Position numbers and translations under genes: made by a program
NCBI RefSeq assembly: GCF_012027635.1
Contig: NZ_SNUS01000001.1
Location: 1,178,001-1,242,000, forward strand
Reading direction: 5' to 3'
Length of the DNA: 64,000 nt
From: Thermococcus sp. 21S9
GTDB lineage: Archaea; Methanobacteriota_B; Thermococci; Thermococcales; Thermococcaceae
Notes under the pieces: generated by a model
Database searches by the model: none
The model's input: the letters and a program-made list of their open reading frames with translations, nothing else
Told to the model about the DNA's origin: nothing
Shown here: piece by piece, positions 712 to 44,900 of the stretch
How positions within the stretch are numbered: position 1 is the stretch's first letter
Layout: each line of letters starts with the position of its first letter

Positions 712-2660
712 CCCACCACCTCCACTATTTCTCCACCTCCCGGAGGCAGAATCGCGTTCAAATCCTCCTCACGAACCTTGTAGCCCCACTTCTCAAGGAT
801 TCCGCGAATCTTCTTGACGAGCTCGCCCTTCTTGAGCCTGCCGGGTCTTATGACGATGTACCTGTTCGTGTGGGCCTTAATCGCGTCAACGGGCGCGCAG
901 ACGACGTAGTCTTCCCCTTCGTAGTTTATCACGCCGACGGCTAACTTCAGCGGAAGCCCGCGAAGCCAGTTCCTCTTCCCGTAGACCATGAAGGCGCCCT
1001 TGCCGAGGTACTCACCGCTGGGAGCTTGCTTCGTCACCTGATTTGGATAGGCCCAGTAGGCGTCCGCTCCATACAGCCCCTGACTCCACGCTCTGCTCAT
1101 CGAAACCGCGAACTGGCAGGCCTCAAAGATGGTCTTCTCTCCAGCCTTTTGCCCGTCCTTGATGACGACGTGGGGAGCGCCGTAAACGTCGGCGTGGCAG
1201 TAGAGGTCGTTCTCGGTCATGTGCCTCTTTATGAGAACCTCGTTCGTTCCTGCATCTTTTCCCGCCAAGACAAGAAAGCCCTCGCTCGAAACGAACCAGC
1301 GGAACTTCTCGAACCACTTCTTCTTTCTCCTCTCGATTTTCTTGACGTTAAGTTCCTTCTTCATCTCCTCCTCGATGAGCTTCTCGACCTCGTCGAGCTT
1401 GCGCTTCGTGTCCTCGTAGGCTTTGAGCGCTCCCTCGTACTTGTGCTTGAACTTCTTGGCCTTCTCGTAGTAGAGCTCGGCGTTCTCGCCTATGCTTTTG
1501 TTGAGGTAGAGCTTGACCTTCTTTCCTTCCAGCTCAATCGTTACGGCTTTCTCCTTCGGGTCAATGGCCTTCACCATGAGCGCAACTCTGTTGCCCTCTT
1601 TTTTGCCCGCCTCTATTCTCCTTTTGAACTCCTCCCAGCCGAGCTTTTCCGTTGCCTTCCTGAACTCGTCCAAAAGCCTCTCTATGAGGGCGTAGTTCGC
1701 GTAGATTAAATCCCCTATCTCCTGGTTCTCGTTCATGGCCCTCTCGAAGCCCTTCAGCATCTCCTCCTGCTTCCTCAGCGTCGCCAGCAACTGTCTCTTC
1801 TTGTTTTCGAGCTTTCTCGTCCTCTCGATTTTGGCCTTCTCGATTGTGAGCTTACCGAAGTACTCGTCGAGGGCCTCGCTGAAGGTGGGGAAGTACTTCT
1901 TTTCAAGCCCCTCGTAGATTTTCAGCTCGATTGGAACGACGTCGTGCATGTTGCCGTCCTTGTAGACGATGTTCGGCCTCGGCTCGTCGTTGAAAGTTCT
2001 CATCATCGCCTCGTAGACCTTCCTCAAATCCTCATCACTCAGCTCTTTCACCGGCGTCGTCTTCTCGAAGCCGGCCCTTATTGAAATCTCCTCCGCGTAC
2101 ATCCCGCCCATGTTGAGCTTCCTCGCTAAGGCCCTGACGAGCTCAAGCTCCTCGTTCTCCCGCACAAGCTCAAGGAAGCGCTCGAAGCTGACCTCCAGCG
2201 GGTTCTCACGGGCTGGTGGGAACTTGTATTCTGCCTTGGGCTTTATCGCCCTGTCCTTGTACTCCTCGTACCTCAAAGCGGCAACAATCCGGTTCTCGGA
2301 ATCAACCAGAACGATGTTGCCCCTCCTGAAGAGCTCGCCGATGAGCGTGTAGTCGCCAACCCTAATCTTTACAATCCTGTCGAACTGATGTTGCTCTATC
2401 GCGTCGATGAACCCTCCGCTCAGGTGCTTTCTGAGAAGCATCGTGAAGCTTGAAGGCTGTTTCGGCGCCTCCTTGACGTAGCTCGTGAGATGGAACCTCT
2501 TTCCTGCCTGGAGGATTAAATCAGCTCTCCCCTCCTTCGTGCGGAGCTTAATCCTTATCTCGTCGCCGTCGTGGTAAACCTTGTCCACGCGAGAGCCAAC
2601 GAGCCACTGGAGTTCCCGCACAACGTAGCGAATATCAACACTACTCATCTCTTCCTTCAT
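708..2660 (-). CDS. rqcH: RqcH/NEMF-family ribosome quality control protein (NFACT)
   Basis: 650 residues with the NFACT layout: NFACT-N (about 1-270), helix-hairpin-helix and charged coiled-coil region (about 270-455), then the NFACT-R/DUF814 domain (about 460-580, ending near [18 protein letters not shown]). The D-R pair needed for tRNA engagement in bacterial RqcH is found here at D94-R95 (QFDRIVKIR). Family members bind obstructed large ribosomal subunits and, in bacteria, direct C-terminal alanine tailing. The start at 2660 follows GGGTGGGAG; a second in-frame ATG lies four codons later. The gene is single and convergent with nikR, the two stop codons sharing bases. Confidence 0.93.
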
Positions 2661-7942: not shown

Positions 7943-8001
7943 GCCCGATGATTGGAACGAGAGTGAGCTGACGGGATGATGACCGACTTCTCGCTGAGGG
8001 C
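7943..8001 (+). ncRNA. C/D box guide sRNA
   Basis: A textbook archaeal C/D architecture is visible: terminal stem GCCC (7943-7946) pairing with GGGC (7998-8001); box C ATGATTG (7948-7954, slightly degenerate); 13-base guide; box D' CTGA (7968-7971); 4-base spacer; box C' ATGATGA (7976-7982, perfect); 11-base guide CCGACTTCTCG; box D CTGA (7994-7997). A BRE/TATA promoter lies at the right distance and a T-rich run (CTTTTCTT) follows near 8007. Such RNAs guide 2'-O-methylation of rRNA or tRNA through L7Ae, Nop5 and fibrillarin. I did not identify the targets. It lies on the same strand as, and just upstream of, gdhA. Confidence 0.87.
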
Positions 8002-9582: not shown

Positions 9583-10749
9583 TCAGCCCTTCGTCCAGTA
9601 GTCCTTCTCCTCCACCATTGCTCTAATCATCTCGTCCTCGTCCCTGAACATCGTCCGCCTCGACGGGTTCTGCATGCCGTAGAACTCCATGAACGGGCTG
9701 GGCCTCCTCTTGAAGGGGTAGTAGAGGTATATGGCAGCAAGCGTCCTGTATGCCTCTGCCATCTCGCTGACGACTCCCGCTGAAACGCCCTCGGCGTAGT
9801 GGTAGACCGCTATGGCCCTGCTGACATCGACGAGGTTAAAATCACGCTCCACGAGCTGTCTCCTCAGTATCTCCGTTGCCTGCTCTATGTCCCCCCTCTC
9901 GAGCTCATCAACCTCGTTCCCGTCGAGGAGGTGCTTTATCCTGATTTTCTTCACGTTCGGGTTCTTGGCAACCTGGTTGTCGTACTCAGCTACGACCCAC
10001 CAGTCGTCTAAAGCCCCGGGGTCGAGAACGGTAAAGTGCTCGCTCAGCTTGTCGTAGAAGCCTCTAACGCGGTGGTAGTACTCCTCTTCGTGGCCGGTCA
10101 TCGGGTAGCTGAGGTAGACGAGGGGCTTCTCCCTCTCCCTGAACAGCAGGTCGAGGAAGACCTCCGGTGGGTGCCTTATACCGAACTGGAGGACGTAGCG
10201 GACGTTTATTCCCTCCTTCTTGAGCTCGTGAACCAGGGTTTTCACGTGGTTTATGGCGTCTTCACGCCACATGACGAGGGTGGTGAGCTTTATGTTGTCC
10301 GGGTCGTTGCCGAAGCGCTCGAACCACTCCCGGTCGTTGATTATCCTCCTCCTGACCGAGAGCACGTCGTCGAGAACGATGATGACTCTATCAGGTTTGA
10401 GGAGCTTGAGGTTGCTGAGGGTGAAGCCTATAACGCTCCCGCTCCCCCAGCGGAAGAGGCTCGGCGTCGAAACGAGGTGGAAAGCCTTGTCGCTCTCGTC
10501 TATCTCCCGCCTTATTCTCTCGAAGGCCTCGTCGCGAATCTCGTTCATCAGGTCTTGGTGGTTTATCGCGAAGTCAAGGACGTTCTTGCGGGTTATCTTA
10601 ACCCCCCTCTCCTTTCCGACCTCTCGGAGGTATTCGAAGACGTGATAGTAGGCGTAGCTCTCCCCGTTGGCCTTTTCAAGGGCCTCGCTCAGGTATTCAT
10701 CGCGCCCGTTGAGGGGCGGGCCGGTTAGAAGGATTACCTCCTTTGCCAT
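9583..10749 (-). CDS. P-loop kinase-like protein fused to a deoxyribosyltransferase-like domain
   Basis: 388 residues. The N-terminus (VILLTGPPLNGRDEYL) occupies the position of a nucleoside-kinase P-loop, but the usual GK[S/T] is replaced by GRD. The C-terminal half, from about residue 215 (KPLVYLSYPMTGHEEEYYHRVRGFYDKL), resembles the nucleoside 2-deoxyribosyltransferase-like fold, whose first strand typically reads like VYLaGPm. A conserved Thermococcales protein of unknown function; a nucleotide-related role is inferred. ATG 10749 follows GGGTGG; three in-frame codons upstream are less likely. It is divergent from psmB across a 102-base gap. Confidence 0.75.
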   Translation of the reverse strand: MAKEVILLTGPPLNGRDEYLSEALEKANGESYAYYHVFEYLREVGKERGVKITRKNVLDFAINHQDLMNEIRDEAFERIRREIDESDKAFHLVSTPSLFRWGSGSVIGFTLSNLKLLKPDRVIIVLDDVLSVRRRIINDREWFERFGNDPDNIKLTTLVMWREDAINHVKTLVHELKKEGINVRYVLQFGIRHPPEVFLDLLFREREKPLVYLSYPMTGHEEEYYHRVRGFYDKLSEHFTVLDPGALDDWWVVAEYDNQVAKNPNVKKIRIKHLLDGNEVDELERGDIEQATEILRRQLVERDFNLVDVSRAIAVYHYAEGVSAGVVSEMAEAYRTLAAIYLYYPFKRRPSPFMEFYGMQNPSRRTMFRDEDEMIRAMVEEKDYWTKG

Positions 10750-14609: not shown

Positions 14610-14697
14610 GCGGGGGTTGCCGAGCCTGGTCAAAGGCGGTGGACTCAAGATCCACTCCCGTAGGGGTTCCGGGGTTCGAATCCCCGCCCCCGCACCA
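14610..14697 (+). tRNA. tRNA-Leu (CAA)
   Basis: Acceptor GCGGGGG (14610-14616) pairs with CCCCCGC before discriminator A and an encoded CCA (14695-14697). Anticodon loop CTCAAGA gives CAA. A long variable arm (CTCCCGTAGGGGTTC region) marks it as class II. T loop TTCGAAT. No intron. A TATA box TTTATAAA (14565-14572) lies about 38 bases upstream, beginning eight bases after the rpiA stop. Confidence 0.97.
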
Positions 14698-15257
14698 CAC
14701 AAACTTCGCCTGCGCGAAGTTTGACCAAGGCTCGTGATTCTTCTCCAAGAATGCAATTCTACGGAGTTTGCACTCTTAAGTGGCAGTACTCTCAAGGAAT
14801 TCTCTTCAAAGGAGCTATTTAGAGGAGTTTCTCTAAAAAGCACTCCTCCGGAGCGCGAGAAAAGCAAACCCTCTTGAGAGCTCTCAAAATCCGGAGAATT
14901 CACAACCTACAAAAGCCCTTAAAAGCGCAAACACTCCCAACAGAGCTTCTATAAAAAGAATCACAAACTTTAATGAAACTTTGCAACAGCCTTTGGGAAA
15001 GGCTGGCGAAAGGAGCGCCCTTCTCACCAAAGACCAGAAAAACAGTCGTGCACTAATCAACTGTAACATTAGAACGGGGTTAATCCCTCAAACAAACATT
15101 TTTCAGGCAGTTTCACATTTTTATCGGCGCCCACAGGGCGCCTTCTTGGAGTAAAACACCAAAAGTTAAGCAAGTTCGACAGAAAACCCATCTAGAACTT
15201 GCACTTTTAAAAAGGCACAACACTTTCCGCCAGCGCTTTCGTCAGAAAGGGCTGTAA
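14698..15257 (+). repeat. Copy A of a dispersed non-coding repeat between convergent tRNAs
   Basis: This 560-base stretch fills exactly the space between the CCA ends of tRNA-Leu and convergent tRNA-Thr. It aligns end to end with the reverse complement of 44249-44822. Shared blocks include a terminal hairpin (AAACTTCGC, loop, GCGAAGTTT at 14701-14722), GACCAAGGYTCGTGATTC, AATTCTCTTCAAAGGAG, TTAAAAGCGCAAACACTCC, GGGAAAGGCTGGCGAAA, AGTCGTGCACTAA and a terminal block CGCCAGCGCTTTCGTCAG next to tRNA-Thr. It is AT-richer than the flanking genes. Open frames of 60-110 codons cross it, but they are not conserved between copies and should not be called genes. Function unknown. Confidence 0.88.
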
Positions 15258-15334
15258 TGGAGCCCCGGGCGGGGTTTGAACCCGCGACCTGCCGCTTACC
15301 AAGCGGCCGCTCCACCAGGCTGAGCCACCGGGGC
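15258..15334 (-). tRNA. tRNA-Thr (GGT)
   Basis: Acceptor GCCCCGG (15328-15334) pairs with CCGGGGC before discriminator T and an encoded CCA (15260-15258). Anticodon loop CTTGGTA gives GGT. T loop TTCAAAC. No intron. TATA TTTATAAA lies at about 15364-15371 on the minus strand, 30-37 bases upstream. Its 3' end faces repeat copy A. Confidence 0.97.
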
Positions 15335-27437: not shown

Positions 27438-27515
27438 GGGCCGGTGGCTTAGCCTGGATAGAGCGTCGGCCTTCGGAGCCGAAGGTCGCGGGTTCGAATC
27501 CCGCCCGGCCCGCCA
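27438..27515 (+). tRNA. tRNA-Arg (TCG)
   Basis: Acceptor GGGCCGG (27438-27444) pairs with CCGGCCC; discriminator G; CCA encoded at 27513-27515. Anticodon loop CTTCGGA gives TCG. T loop TTCGAAT. No intron. A TATA-like TTTATGTTTAA lies near 27405-27415. Its 3' end faces repeat copy C. Confidence 0.97.
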
Positions 27516-28101
27516 TCGAAACTTTTGCTTGGCAAAAGTTTCATCAAAAGTTTGTGATTCCCTTTTGAGGAACAGTTTTTAAGTGGATTTCTTTTTGAGT
27601 TGCTCTTTTTTGAGAGTGAATTCATTTAAAAGCACCTTTTAAAGGGGTTTAAGCCTTTTTGCGCTCCTTTGGAGCGCGGTTTTAGTAGAACCCGCGTGGA
27701 AGACCTTAATCCAATGAATTCAAACTTTTCAATGGAGGGCTTGATTTTGAAATCCCCTTACAGAGGGGGCTTTAACGAGGAATCACGAGCTTTTGGTGAA
27801 GCTTTTTTCAAAAGCTTCAGCGCTGGCGGAGAAACTTTTCTGGGGAAAAGTTTCATCAAAGTTAGCATGCTTTTTAAAAGAGTTCATTCTTTAGGGGTTT
27901 GCTTCAAAACTCTCCTGTTTTAAGCGTGTTTTACTCCATTAGCGCCCTTTGGGCGCCCTTTTAAGTTGAATACCTTCTCCAGGGGATATTGTAAGTTTAA
28001 CCCCAAATCTATTGACTGTTTAATAATGCATGCGACTTTTCTTTTTGCCCTTTTGGACAGTTAAACCATTTTGGTCAAGCTTTGCGCAAGCAAAGCTTGC
28101 T
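27516..28101 (+). repeat. Copy C of the tRNA-flanking repeat, rearranged
   Basis: A 586-base gene-free stretch between tRNA-Arg and a C/D-like sRNA. It carries blocks in the same order as copy A: a terminal hairpin AAACTTTTGC/GGCAAAAGTTT (27520-27541) running into CAAAAGTTTGTGATTC, then GCGCTCCTTTGGAGCGCGG with AACCCGCGTG, GAATCACGAGCTTTTGGTGAA, GCGCTGGCGGAGAAAC and GCCCTTTGGGCGCC. Unlike copies A and B it ends with a second, inverted hairpin module (GGTCAAGCTTTGC...GCAAAGCTTG, 28074-28099). It is strongly AT-rich. No coding potential is shared with the other copies. Confidence 0.7.
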
Positions 28102-28162
28102 GGCCTCAGGAGTGGTGGCCCTCCGCACCCCTCGGTGCCGGGCCAACCGCTCATCATCGGCC
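28102..28162 (-). ncRNA. C/D box-like sRNA
   Basis: Read on the minus strand: stem GGCC (28162-28159), box C ATGATGA (28157-28151), about 15 bases, a D'-like CCGA, 3 bases, a C'-like GTGCGGA, 12-base guide GGGCCACCACTC, box D CTGA (28109-28106) and stem GGCC (28105-28102). The terminal boxes are perfect; the internal pair is degenerate and can instead form a GC-rich hairpin. A minus-strand TATA-like ATTTAAGG (28183-28190) is about 25 bases upstream. Its 3' end abuts repeat copy C. The guide targets were not identified. Confidence 0.65.
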
Positions 28163-43914: not shown

Positions 43915-43991
43915 TGGAGCCCCGGGCGGGATTTGAACCCGCGACCGGCGGATTACAAGTCCGCCGCCCCGCCAGGCTAGGCTACCGGGGC
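43915..43991 (-). tRNA. tRNA-Thr (TGT)
   Basis: Acceptor GCCCCGG (43985-43991) pairs with CCGGGGC; discriminator T; CCA encoded at 43917-43915. Anticodon loop CTTGTAA gives TGT. T loop TTCAAAT. It shares acceptor and T arm with tRNA-Thr(GGT) at 15258. A TATA TTTATAAC lies at about 44022-44029 on the minus strand, divergent from the tRNA-Asn promoter. The repeat module is absent from its 3' flank. Confidence 0.97.
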
Positions 43992-44170: not shown

Positions 44171-44248
44171 GGGCCCGTAGCTCAGCCTGGTCAGAGCGCG
44201 CGGCTCATAACCGCGTGGTCGGGGGTTCAAAGCCCCCCGGGCCCACCA
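44171..44248 (+). tRNA. tRNA with CAT anticodon (elongator Met or Ile2)
   Basis: Acceptor GGGCCCG pairs with CGGGCCC; discriminator A; CCA encoded at 44246-44248. Anticodon loop CTCATAA gives CAT. It lacks the initiator pattern. The GGGCCCG acceptor is common in archaeal tRNA-Ile, so an agmatidine-modified Ile2 tRNA is as likely as elongator Met; sequence alone does not settle it. Its 3' end faces repeat copy B. Confidence 0.93.
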
Positions 44249-44822
44249 TTACAGCCCTTTCTGACGAAAGCGCTGGCGGAATGTAGTGTGCTGATTCTTA
44301 AGGTGTCCATTTGAGAGTTGGTTTCTCTTTCATGTGCTCTTGGGGGAAGAGTTTCTCTCTAAGAAGGCGCCCGAAGGGTGCTGATAGGAAGCTGAAACTC
44401 TCTCAGGGGTTTGTTGTAGTGTTAAACCCTCTGGGGATTTGCTCTTTGGTTAGTGCACGACTGACTTCTTGCTCGTTGGTGGAAAAATAGCTTTTCGCCA
44501 GCCTTTCCCAATGGCTGTTGGCAAAGTTTCATCAAAGTTTGTGATTCTTCCATCAAGGGTTTCTTTTGGAGTGTTTGCGCTTTTAATGGACTCTTATAGA
44601 ATGCGAATTCTTAGATTTTGGAAGCTTTCTCACGCGGGTTCCATTTACCCGCGCTCCAAAGGAGCGCTTCTTGGAGGAACTCCTTCCAAATGGCTCCTTT
44701 GAAGAGAATTCTTCTGATAACACTGTCTTTTAAGAGTATAAACGCAAACTTCTTAGAAATCTCATTTTTTTGGGGAAGAATCACGAACCTTGGTCAAACT
44801 TCGCGCAGGCGAAGTTTGTAAC
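44249..44822 (-). repeat. Copy B of the tRNA-flanking repeat, inverted relative to copy A
   Basis: These 574 bases lie exactly between the CCA ends of the CAT tRNA and convergent tRNA-Pro. The reverse complement aligns along its whole length with copy A. Its right end carries the same hairpin (AAACTTCGC/GCGAAGTTT, 44797-44818) with GACCAAGGTTCGTGATTC; its left end (TTACAGCCCTTTCTGACG, then AAAGCGCTGGCGGAA) is identical over about 33 bases to the trailer of tRNA-Thr(GGT). The middle is diverged, with indels, and its open frames do not match those of copy A. Confidence 0.88.
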
Positions 44823-44900
44823 TGGTGGGGCCGCCGGGATTTGAACCCGGGTCACGGGCTCCCAAAGCCCGCAGGATGGGCCAAGCTACCCTACGGCCCC
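44823..44900 (-). tRNA. tRNA-Pro (TGG)
   Basis: Acceptor GGGGCCG (44894-44900) pairs with CGGCCCC; discriminator A; CCA encoded at 44825-44823. Anticodon loop TTTGGGA gives TGG. T loop TTCAAAT. No intron. A TATA-like CTTAATAAGG is at about 44924-44933 on the minus strand. Its 3' end faces repeat copy B. Confidence 0.97.

Follow-up and report, generated by a model that had tools for sequence, protein, structure and literature searches.

What fills the gaps between facing stable-RNA genes in the chromosome of Thermococcus sp. 21S9, and how did it come to lie there? The question is raised by a window of 64,000 nucleotides (contig NZ_SNUS01000001.1, positions 1,178,001 to 1,242,000), in which arrays A (14698-15257), B (44249-44822) and C (27516-28101) each run from one RNA gene to another. 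The original prediction described three copies of a dispersed non-coding repeat confined between convergent RNA genes, and offered a tRNA-targeting element, a shared terminator or a site of gene conversion as explanations. Its coordinates are exact, as are the contacts with the RNA genes. Array A and the reverse complement of array B align from end to end (73.5% identity, E = 2.6e-85). Array C, presented as a third, rearranged copy between tRNA-Arg and a C/D-like sRNA (identified here as sR47), indeed has pieces in common with A and B and is made of related but different units. The features concerned are listed by position.

14610..14697, plus strand: tRNA-Leu(CAA) (ARAGORN); its CCA anchors array A on the left
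14700..14983, no strand assigned: alpha unit of array A; terminal hairpin at 14700-14723
14987..15254, minus strand: beta unit of array A, in opposite orientation to the alpha unit
15258..15334, minus strand: tRNA-Thr(GGT) (ARAGORN); its CCA anchors array A on the right
27438..27515, plus strand: tRNA-Arg(TCG) (ARAGORN); left anchor of array C
27518..27818, plus strand: alpha unit of array C, from hairpin GAAACTTTTGC..GCAAAAGTTTC to hairpin GAAGCTTTTTTCAAAAGCTTC
27819..27830, plus strand: beta-hairpin remnant AGCGCTGGCGGA of array C; the tRNA-proximal arm is gone
27831..28101, plus strand: gamma unit of array C, with a GCATGC...GCATGC body and a far hairpin at 28076-28099
28104..28161, minus strand: C/D box sRNA sR47 (Rfam RF01131); its 3' end anchors array C on the right
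43915..43991, minus strand: tRNA-Thr(TGT), an internal control without a repeat
44171..44248, plus strand: tRNA-Met(CAT) (ARAGORN); anchor of array B
44249..44518, plus strand: beta unit of array B, with TTACAGCCCTTTCTGACGAAAGCGCTGGCGG immediately 3' of the CCA
44521..44818, minus strand: alpha unit of array B, with GTTA and then CAAACTTCGCCTGCGCGAAGTTTG immediately 3' of the tRNA-Pro CCA
44823..44900, minus strand: tRNA-Pro(TGG) (ARAGORN); anchor of array B

All three arrays consist of palindromic units. Each unit, a non-coding palindrome of about 285-300 bp, combines a terminal hairpin with a subterminal inverted repeat, and its body contains a central GC hairpin. Four main body types are distinguished by their inverted repeats: GTGATTC..GAATCAC, GTAGCTC..GAGCTAC, GCATGC..GCATGC and GTGC..GTGCAC. 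Two hairpin types, alpha (C/GAAACTT...AAGTTTG/C) and beta (CAGCCCTTTCTGACGAAAGCGCTGGCGG), occur on the RNA side, and they are partly independent of body type. A smaller, GC-rich delta type starts with CGAAAGACAAGGGGG 3-4 nt past the CCA. In array A, the alpha unit carries the inverted repeat GTGATTC (14734-14740)...GAATCAC and ends on its inner side in AAACTTTAATGAAACTTTG; the beta unit has an inner hairpin at 14987-15005 and an outer hairpin at 15231-15254 (CAGCGCTTTCGTCAGAAAGGGCTG) that adjoins tRNA-Thr. Units at tRNA-Leu(gag) and tRNA-Leu(tag) elsewhere in this genome match the alpha unit of array C at 86-87% identity. This modularity extends to the joints between units, which are hairpins, often lacking one arm, as at AAGCTTC|AGCGCTGGCGG in array C. 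Terminal inverted repeats of about 40 nt (GTGATTC..GAATCAC) and end hairpins are present in 27 of 27 alpha units. A further GC-rich repeat type, beginning CGAAAGACAAGGGGGCTCCGCCCCC, occurs directly past the CCA and mixed into arrays; it was seen at tRNA-Gln-ttg of T. nautili (L172), at tRNA-Arg-ccg (L229) and tRNA-His (L233) of genome G012, and at a tRNA-Thr (L270).

The absence of conserved coding, also claimed at the outset, is confirmed: comparison of the arrays and copies gave no common reading frame, and the differences between A and B include many indels. Decayed coding genes were rejected on these grounds. The inverted repeats show strong conservation. In neither alpha subfamily are compensatory changes more numerous than in shuffled-partner controls, so that selection on an RNA fold is not demonstrated and a structured RNA family was rejected; no Rfam family reaches its gathering threshold inside the repeats.

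The position rule is best seen in the whole genome (1.92 Mb), where counts are based on BLAST with arrays A and C as queries and on tRNA-centred sequence. Array A yields 28 matches at 17 sites, and array C together with a tRNA census adds C itself, tRNA-Asp and tRNA-Glu(ttc), for at least 20 repeat sites. At 19 of these 20, a tRNA CCA lies 0-6 nt before the repeat end. One of the 19 is anchored by an intron-containing tRNA, called Ser by ARAGORN with introns, whose arm reads CAT and suggests Met. The 20th site (L042) adjoins an unnamed GC-rich RNA-like sequence rather than a tRNA. At most sites other than A-C a single tRNA is contacted, and on the opposite side lies a protein gene, which may face either way. 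Filling of a gap between convergent RNA genes thus holds for A, B and C and fails as a rule: facing tRNAs are not needed, and one stable-RNA 3' end suffices. Sizes of the repeat regions cluster at about 290, 580-660 and 850-890 bp, with some near 490, which indicates mostly one, two or three units per array.

Two observations on other RNAs can be added. The GC-rich sequence GGGGTTGCGATGACGTCGGGACCCCCAGGGGGGCGACAGC..GCCCCCC at L042 (about 2067-2150, minus strand) recurs at L239 and L101, is conserved in three species and is directly followed by a repeat end at all three loci; it has no Rfam match and is probably an undescribed small RNA. In the window, the C/D RNA sR58 (7944-7999) has no repeat at its 3' end, so the rule is not valid for all guide RNAs.

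The same arrangement is found in other genomes. All tRNAs of the sister genome (G034), of T. nautili (G036) and of G012 were taken in; BLAST counts were preferred, since a regular expression for repeat ends gave some false positives. By BLAST, 17-21 of the 39-40 cluster-terminal tRNAs in each of the four genomes are followed by a repeat-type first unit. Among best-match loci from about 28 other species, combined with an exact 27-mer scan, a tRNA 3' end adjoins the repeat in 33 of 38 (31 of 40 segments by script, the remainder by eye). The exact 27-mer follows a CCA in eight of nine metagenome-assembled contigs. Copies in the other genomes examined therefore sit almost always at stable-RNA 3' ends; the suspicion that the original trio was no coincidence is borne out, and a search for copies lying mostly away from tRNA 3' ends revealed no such distribution. 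Across the family, matches to array C are frequent in the genus, become few and weak in three further genera and are missing from two. Arrays A, B and C are members of a repeat family found throughout Thermococcus, with one to three or more units per array.

Copies apart from annotated tRNAs were inspected in G034, T. nautili and G012. Two of them lie behind intron-bearing tRNA-Trp, one at the end of the H/ACA RNA Pab160 and another at the GC-rich RNA-like sequence described above. At L241 (about 494) a beta-like end directly follows the TAG of a protein frame, which makes this locus the plainest departure from the stable-RNA rule. L245 has no visible RNA anchor.

Occupancy changes quickly. 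Orthologous tRNAs of sister species differ in state, being followed by an alpha unit, a beta unit or none, and flanks are 90-98% identical even where the units at the tRNA differ or are reversed. Locus A measures 785 bp in G034 versus 560 bp in 21S9, and its end types are swapped in G034, where the beta end is next to Leu and the alpha end next to Thr; the sequence outside both tRNAs is 97-98% identical. Four loci (Leu-gag, Val-gac, Arg-tcg and Arg-cct) keep the flank at 88-95% identity, in many cases together with a distal unit, and differ in the tRNA-proximal unit. For the last three, comparison of 21S9 with T. nautili gives 90-95% identity over the distal part and flank, and the tRNA-side part has been replaced. 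At Leu-gag of 21S9, a 299-bp alpha unit separates the CCA from the orthologous beta unit, and the hairpin of the latter is missing its proximal arm; in G034 and T. nautili that beta unit is directly at the CCA. The case looks like an insertion. Downstream of tRNAs never found with a repeat (for example Leu-cag, Thr-cgt, Pro-ggg), sister-species sequence is conserved close to the CCA, and the flank of the control tRNA-Thr(TGT) is kept at 92% from at most 11 nt past the CCA. Many of the repeat-free tRNA 3' flanks are thus occupied.

Insertion of this kind is what would be expected of non-autonomous, MITE-like elements moved by an enzyme that recognises hairpin ends and stable-RNA 3' ends, with arrays arising from repeated insertion at the CCA. 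The discrete, hairpin-ended units, the unit-sized arrays, the new unit at Leu-gag ahead of an older, truncated one, the changing state of one tRNA from species to species and the copies at non-tRNA RNAs all speak for such movement. Against it, no target-site duplication was seen at the junctions viewed, among which no pair of sites cleanly matched an empty state with a filled one and retained the flanks on both sides. No ORF-bearing relative with matching ends, and hence no coding parent, was found in the 21S9 genome, plasmids or phages, and viral contigs held no exact end; a phage, plasmid or virus source of the repeats was rejected for want of any match. Y1 transposase (PF01797) occurs in nine of 41 genomes of the genus and is absent from 21S9, G034, T. 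nautili and G012, and was rejected as the mover. Targeted transposition is considered rather unlikely; the suggestion of a tRNA-targeting element is still plausible, although the search revealed no transposase, target-site duplication or parent.

The junctions point in another direction. The most recent copies are near-identical, lie between isoacceptor tRNAs and end in hairpin arms. The first 297 nt or so past the CCA are identical at Leu-caa and Leu-gag of G034, after which the two diverge within the arm of the next unit (GGGCAAAGTTTCATCAAA). In 21S9, Leu-gag and Leu-tag share 98% identity over the stretch between the first hairpin loop and AGCGCTGGCGGAAG. A Gly/Gly pair of T. nautili (96%) and a Val/Val pair of G012 (89%) are similar cases. 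Within each Leu pair the same broken hairpin joint is present, as expected if an existing joint was copied, and these identical junctions count against independent insertions. The spacer between the CCA and a GAAACT end also follows the tRNA: it is 0 nt in five of five tRNA-Leu and 2-3 nt in 17 other tRNAs (Fisher p of about 4e-5). The spacers and the shared joints together favour homology-anchored exchange.

It can be proposed, with slightly better than even confidence, that this is a tRNA-anchored, hairpin-jointed repeat family that changes mainly by recombination and feeds chromosome inversions. The steps would be as follows. (i) Arrays would change mainly by homology-anchored exchange, whether gene conversion, crossover or template switching. 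(ii) One junction would fall in the conserved tRNA 3' half or terminal hairpin. (iii) The other would fall in a hairpin arm common to all units. (iv) Cassettes would in this way move from tRNA to tRNA and stay confined to tRNA 3' flanks. (v) The arrays would finally provide inverted homology by which recombinases flip chromosome segments. Against this reading, the preference for isoacceptors is limited to the most recent copies. When all pairs are taken together, the similarity of units barely tracks that of the tRNA 3' parts (Mantel r 0.04-0.17, p 0.03-0.29), which implies many transfers between unlike tRNAs, requiring short homology or another mechanism; copying by tRNA homology alone was rejected for this reason. 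The copies at Pab160, at the unnamed RNA-like sequence and at the L241 stop codon are not explained by tRNA homology. The insertion-like Leu-gag case and the unanchored site L245 also count against it.

A further proposal is an RNA-guided step that would place cassettes at the mature 3' ends of stable RNAs. An abundant mature RNA would pair with its own gene, its 3'-OH would prime DNA synthesis, and synthesis would switch template into a hairpin cassette, so that insertion would start just past the CCA or past the end of a guide RNA. The proposal is highly unlikely to be correct; if true, it would constitute an undescribed route of DNA insertion set by RNA ends.

A role at RNA 3' ends has also to be weighed. 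Archaeal polymerase stops at T-rich tracts. Behind repeat-bearing tRNAs the RNA-coding strand is T-rich 40-130 nt past the CCA (at 40-100 nt, T is 0.38-0.43 versus A at 0.19-0.25), and T4 runs number 2.7 versus 1.3 A4 runs per 150 nt. The repeats thus carry the T-rich downstream tract on the coding strand that characterizes archaeal terminators, and the units could end transcription. In a selected 3'-flank module, the hairpin and the T-rich strand would do this or protect stable-RNA 3' ends and would insulate these RNAs from convergent genes, and species would swap equivalent modules. Occupation of about half of the terminal tRNAs in every genome examined closely, and the lack of T bias at repeat-free tRNAs, agree with selection. 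The other half of the tRNAs do without a repeat, occupancy of a given tRNA varies between sister species, the fold lacks covariation above the controls, and the T bias is not independent evidence because the sequences share ancestry. A selected module is considered unlikely, and the shared-terminator idea is left with circumstantial support from the T-rich strand. Both targeted transposition and a selected module are live, and either could hold alongside the recombination reading.

tRNA genes are integration sites in Thermococcus, and the repeats might be decayed genes, or what is left of plasmids or viruses that integrate at tRNAs. Two loci are relevant. At L243 (T. nautili, 1016000-1018200), a repeat lies beyond a tRNA-His 3' fragment next to an integrase-like ORF, 25 kb from the intact tRNA-His at 1042400; at L240 (G034, 1384600-1387000), a tRNA-Arg 3' fragment is followed by an array, also beside an integrase-like ORF, and the intact tRNA-Arg(tct) is 17 kb away. 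L243 is, from its arrangement, an integrated element that would have moved the palindromic array away from its tRNA-His. At both loci the repeats are outside the tRNA fragment and represent the flank present before integration; the units themselves lack both a conserved frame and a plasmid or phage match. The chance that the family consists of such remnants is close to negligible. A related observation concerns the left anchor of array A. In T. nautili, tRNA-Leu-caa is at 10012 and the gene just upstream of it at 1966400-1967086 (L116), a separation of about 19 kb across the record start of a genome of 1,976,356 bp (strain 30-1; PMC3968343), which fits integration of the 18-kb pTN3 in that tRNA. 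By its position there, and from PMC3968343, tRNA-Leu(CAA) at 14610..14697 is probably orthologous to the pTN3 attachment-site tRNA-Leu.

The recombination reading gains from repeats at published inversion sites. According to the relevant passages of Cossu 2017 (PMC5495485), Thermococcus chromosomes are scrambled by inversions, several with ends at tRNA genes. A laboratory inversion of T. nautili is placed there between two tRNA-Gly genes that have a perfectly conserved 176-bp segment once one sequenced base is corrected, and sequencing of the in vitro reaction mapped the crossover to the 3' half of the tRNA and the adjoining downstream sequence. The Gly-ccc and Gly-tcc loci of T. nautili have 176 common positions (77-252) with one mismatch, made up of 41 bp of tRNA and 135 bp of repeat; the published segment is thus the tRNA 3' half plus the present repeat. 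BD01_1557/1976 are inferred to be these loci from gene order and the 176-bp match. The same passages report an inversion of T. onnurineus relative to T. sp. 4557 at tRNA-Leu/tRNA-Thr, the pair that flanks array A, and a plasmid integrase that was tested and could not recombine tRNA-Leu with tRNA-Thr. They name tRNA genes and conserved sequence immediately after them and, within that text, describe no repeat family. Repeat ends lie directly past tRNA-Leu and tRNA-Pro in both genomes, and in T. sp. 4557 also past tRNA-Thr; the Leu and Pro arrays of the latter have about 140 bp in common at 78% identity. The two genomes compared at the Leu-Thr junctions were presumably T. onnurineus and T. sp. 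4557. As judged by sequence, the arrays are good candidates for the missing Leu/Thr homology. Of the three explanations first offered, gene conversion fits best, given the isoacceptor copies and an inversion block that is mostly repeat.

A repeat family at tRNA 3' ends would thus offer the missing homology for inversions and predict where genomes break. Stable-RNA 3' ends emerge as favoured places for repeats to reside when an archaeal genome is compact. The family may also supply interchangeable transcription ends. As first surmised, no described element with this rule was found in the literature searched, which included few subscription journals; an older description is possible. The nearest relatives in form are MITEs, which are likewise short, non-coding, dispersed, bounded by terminal inverted repeats and devoid of their own transposase. 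The present family differs in its near-restriction to stable-RNA 3' ends, in exchange tracts that end in hairpin arms, and in having no parent found and no target-site duplication seen. The REP/BIME sequences of bacteria, with their RAYT (Y1) enzymes, also combine hairpins with modular arrays of inverted units; here the units are about 300 bp long and placed at tRNA ends, in four closely examined carriers devoid of Y1. Archaeal casposons and tyrosine-integrase elements use tRNA genes as target sites. They are gene-bearing, unlike the present non-coding units of about 300 bp, which have no integrase gene and leave no tRNA fragment of their own. In Dictyostelium, the TRE3 retrotransposon inserts downstream of tRNA genes. 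TRE5-A integrates near them, described in PMC5391098 as a safe place in a gene-dense genome. Those are coding retrotransposons that insert at a distance, whereas the Thermococcus units are joined 0-6 nt past the tRNA.
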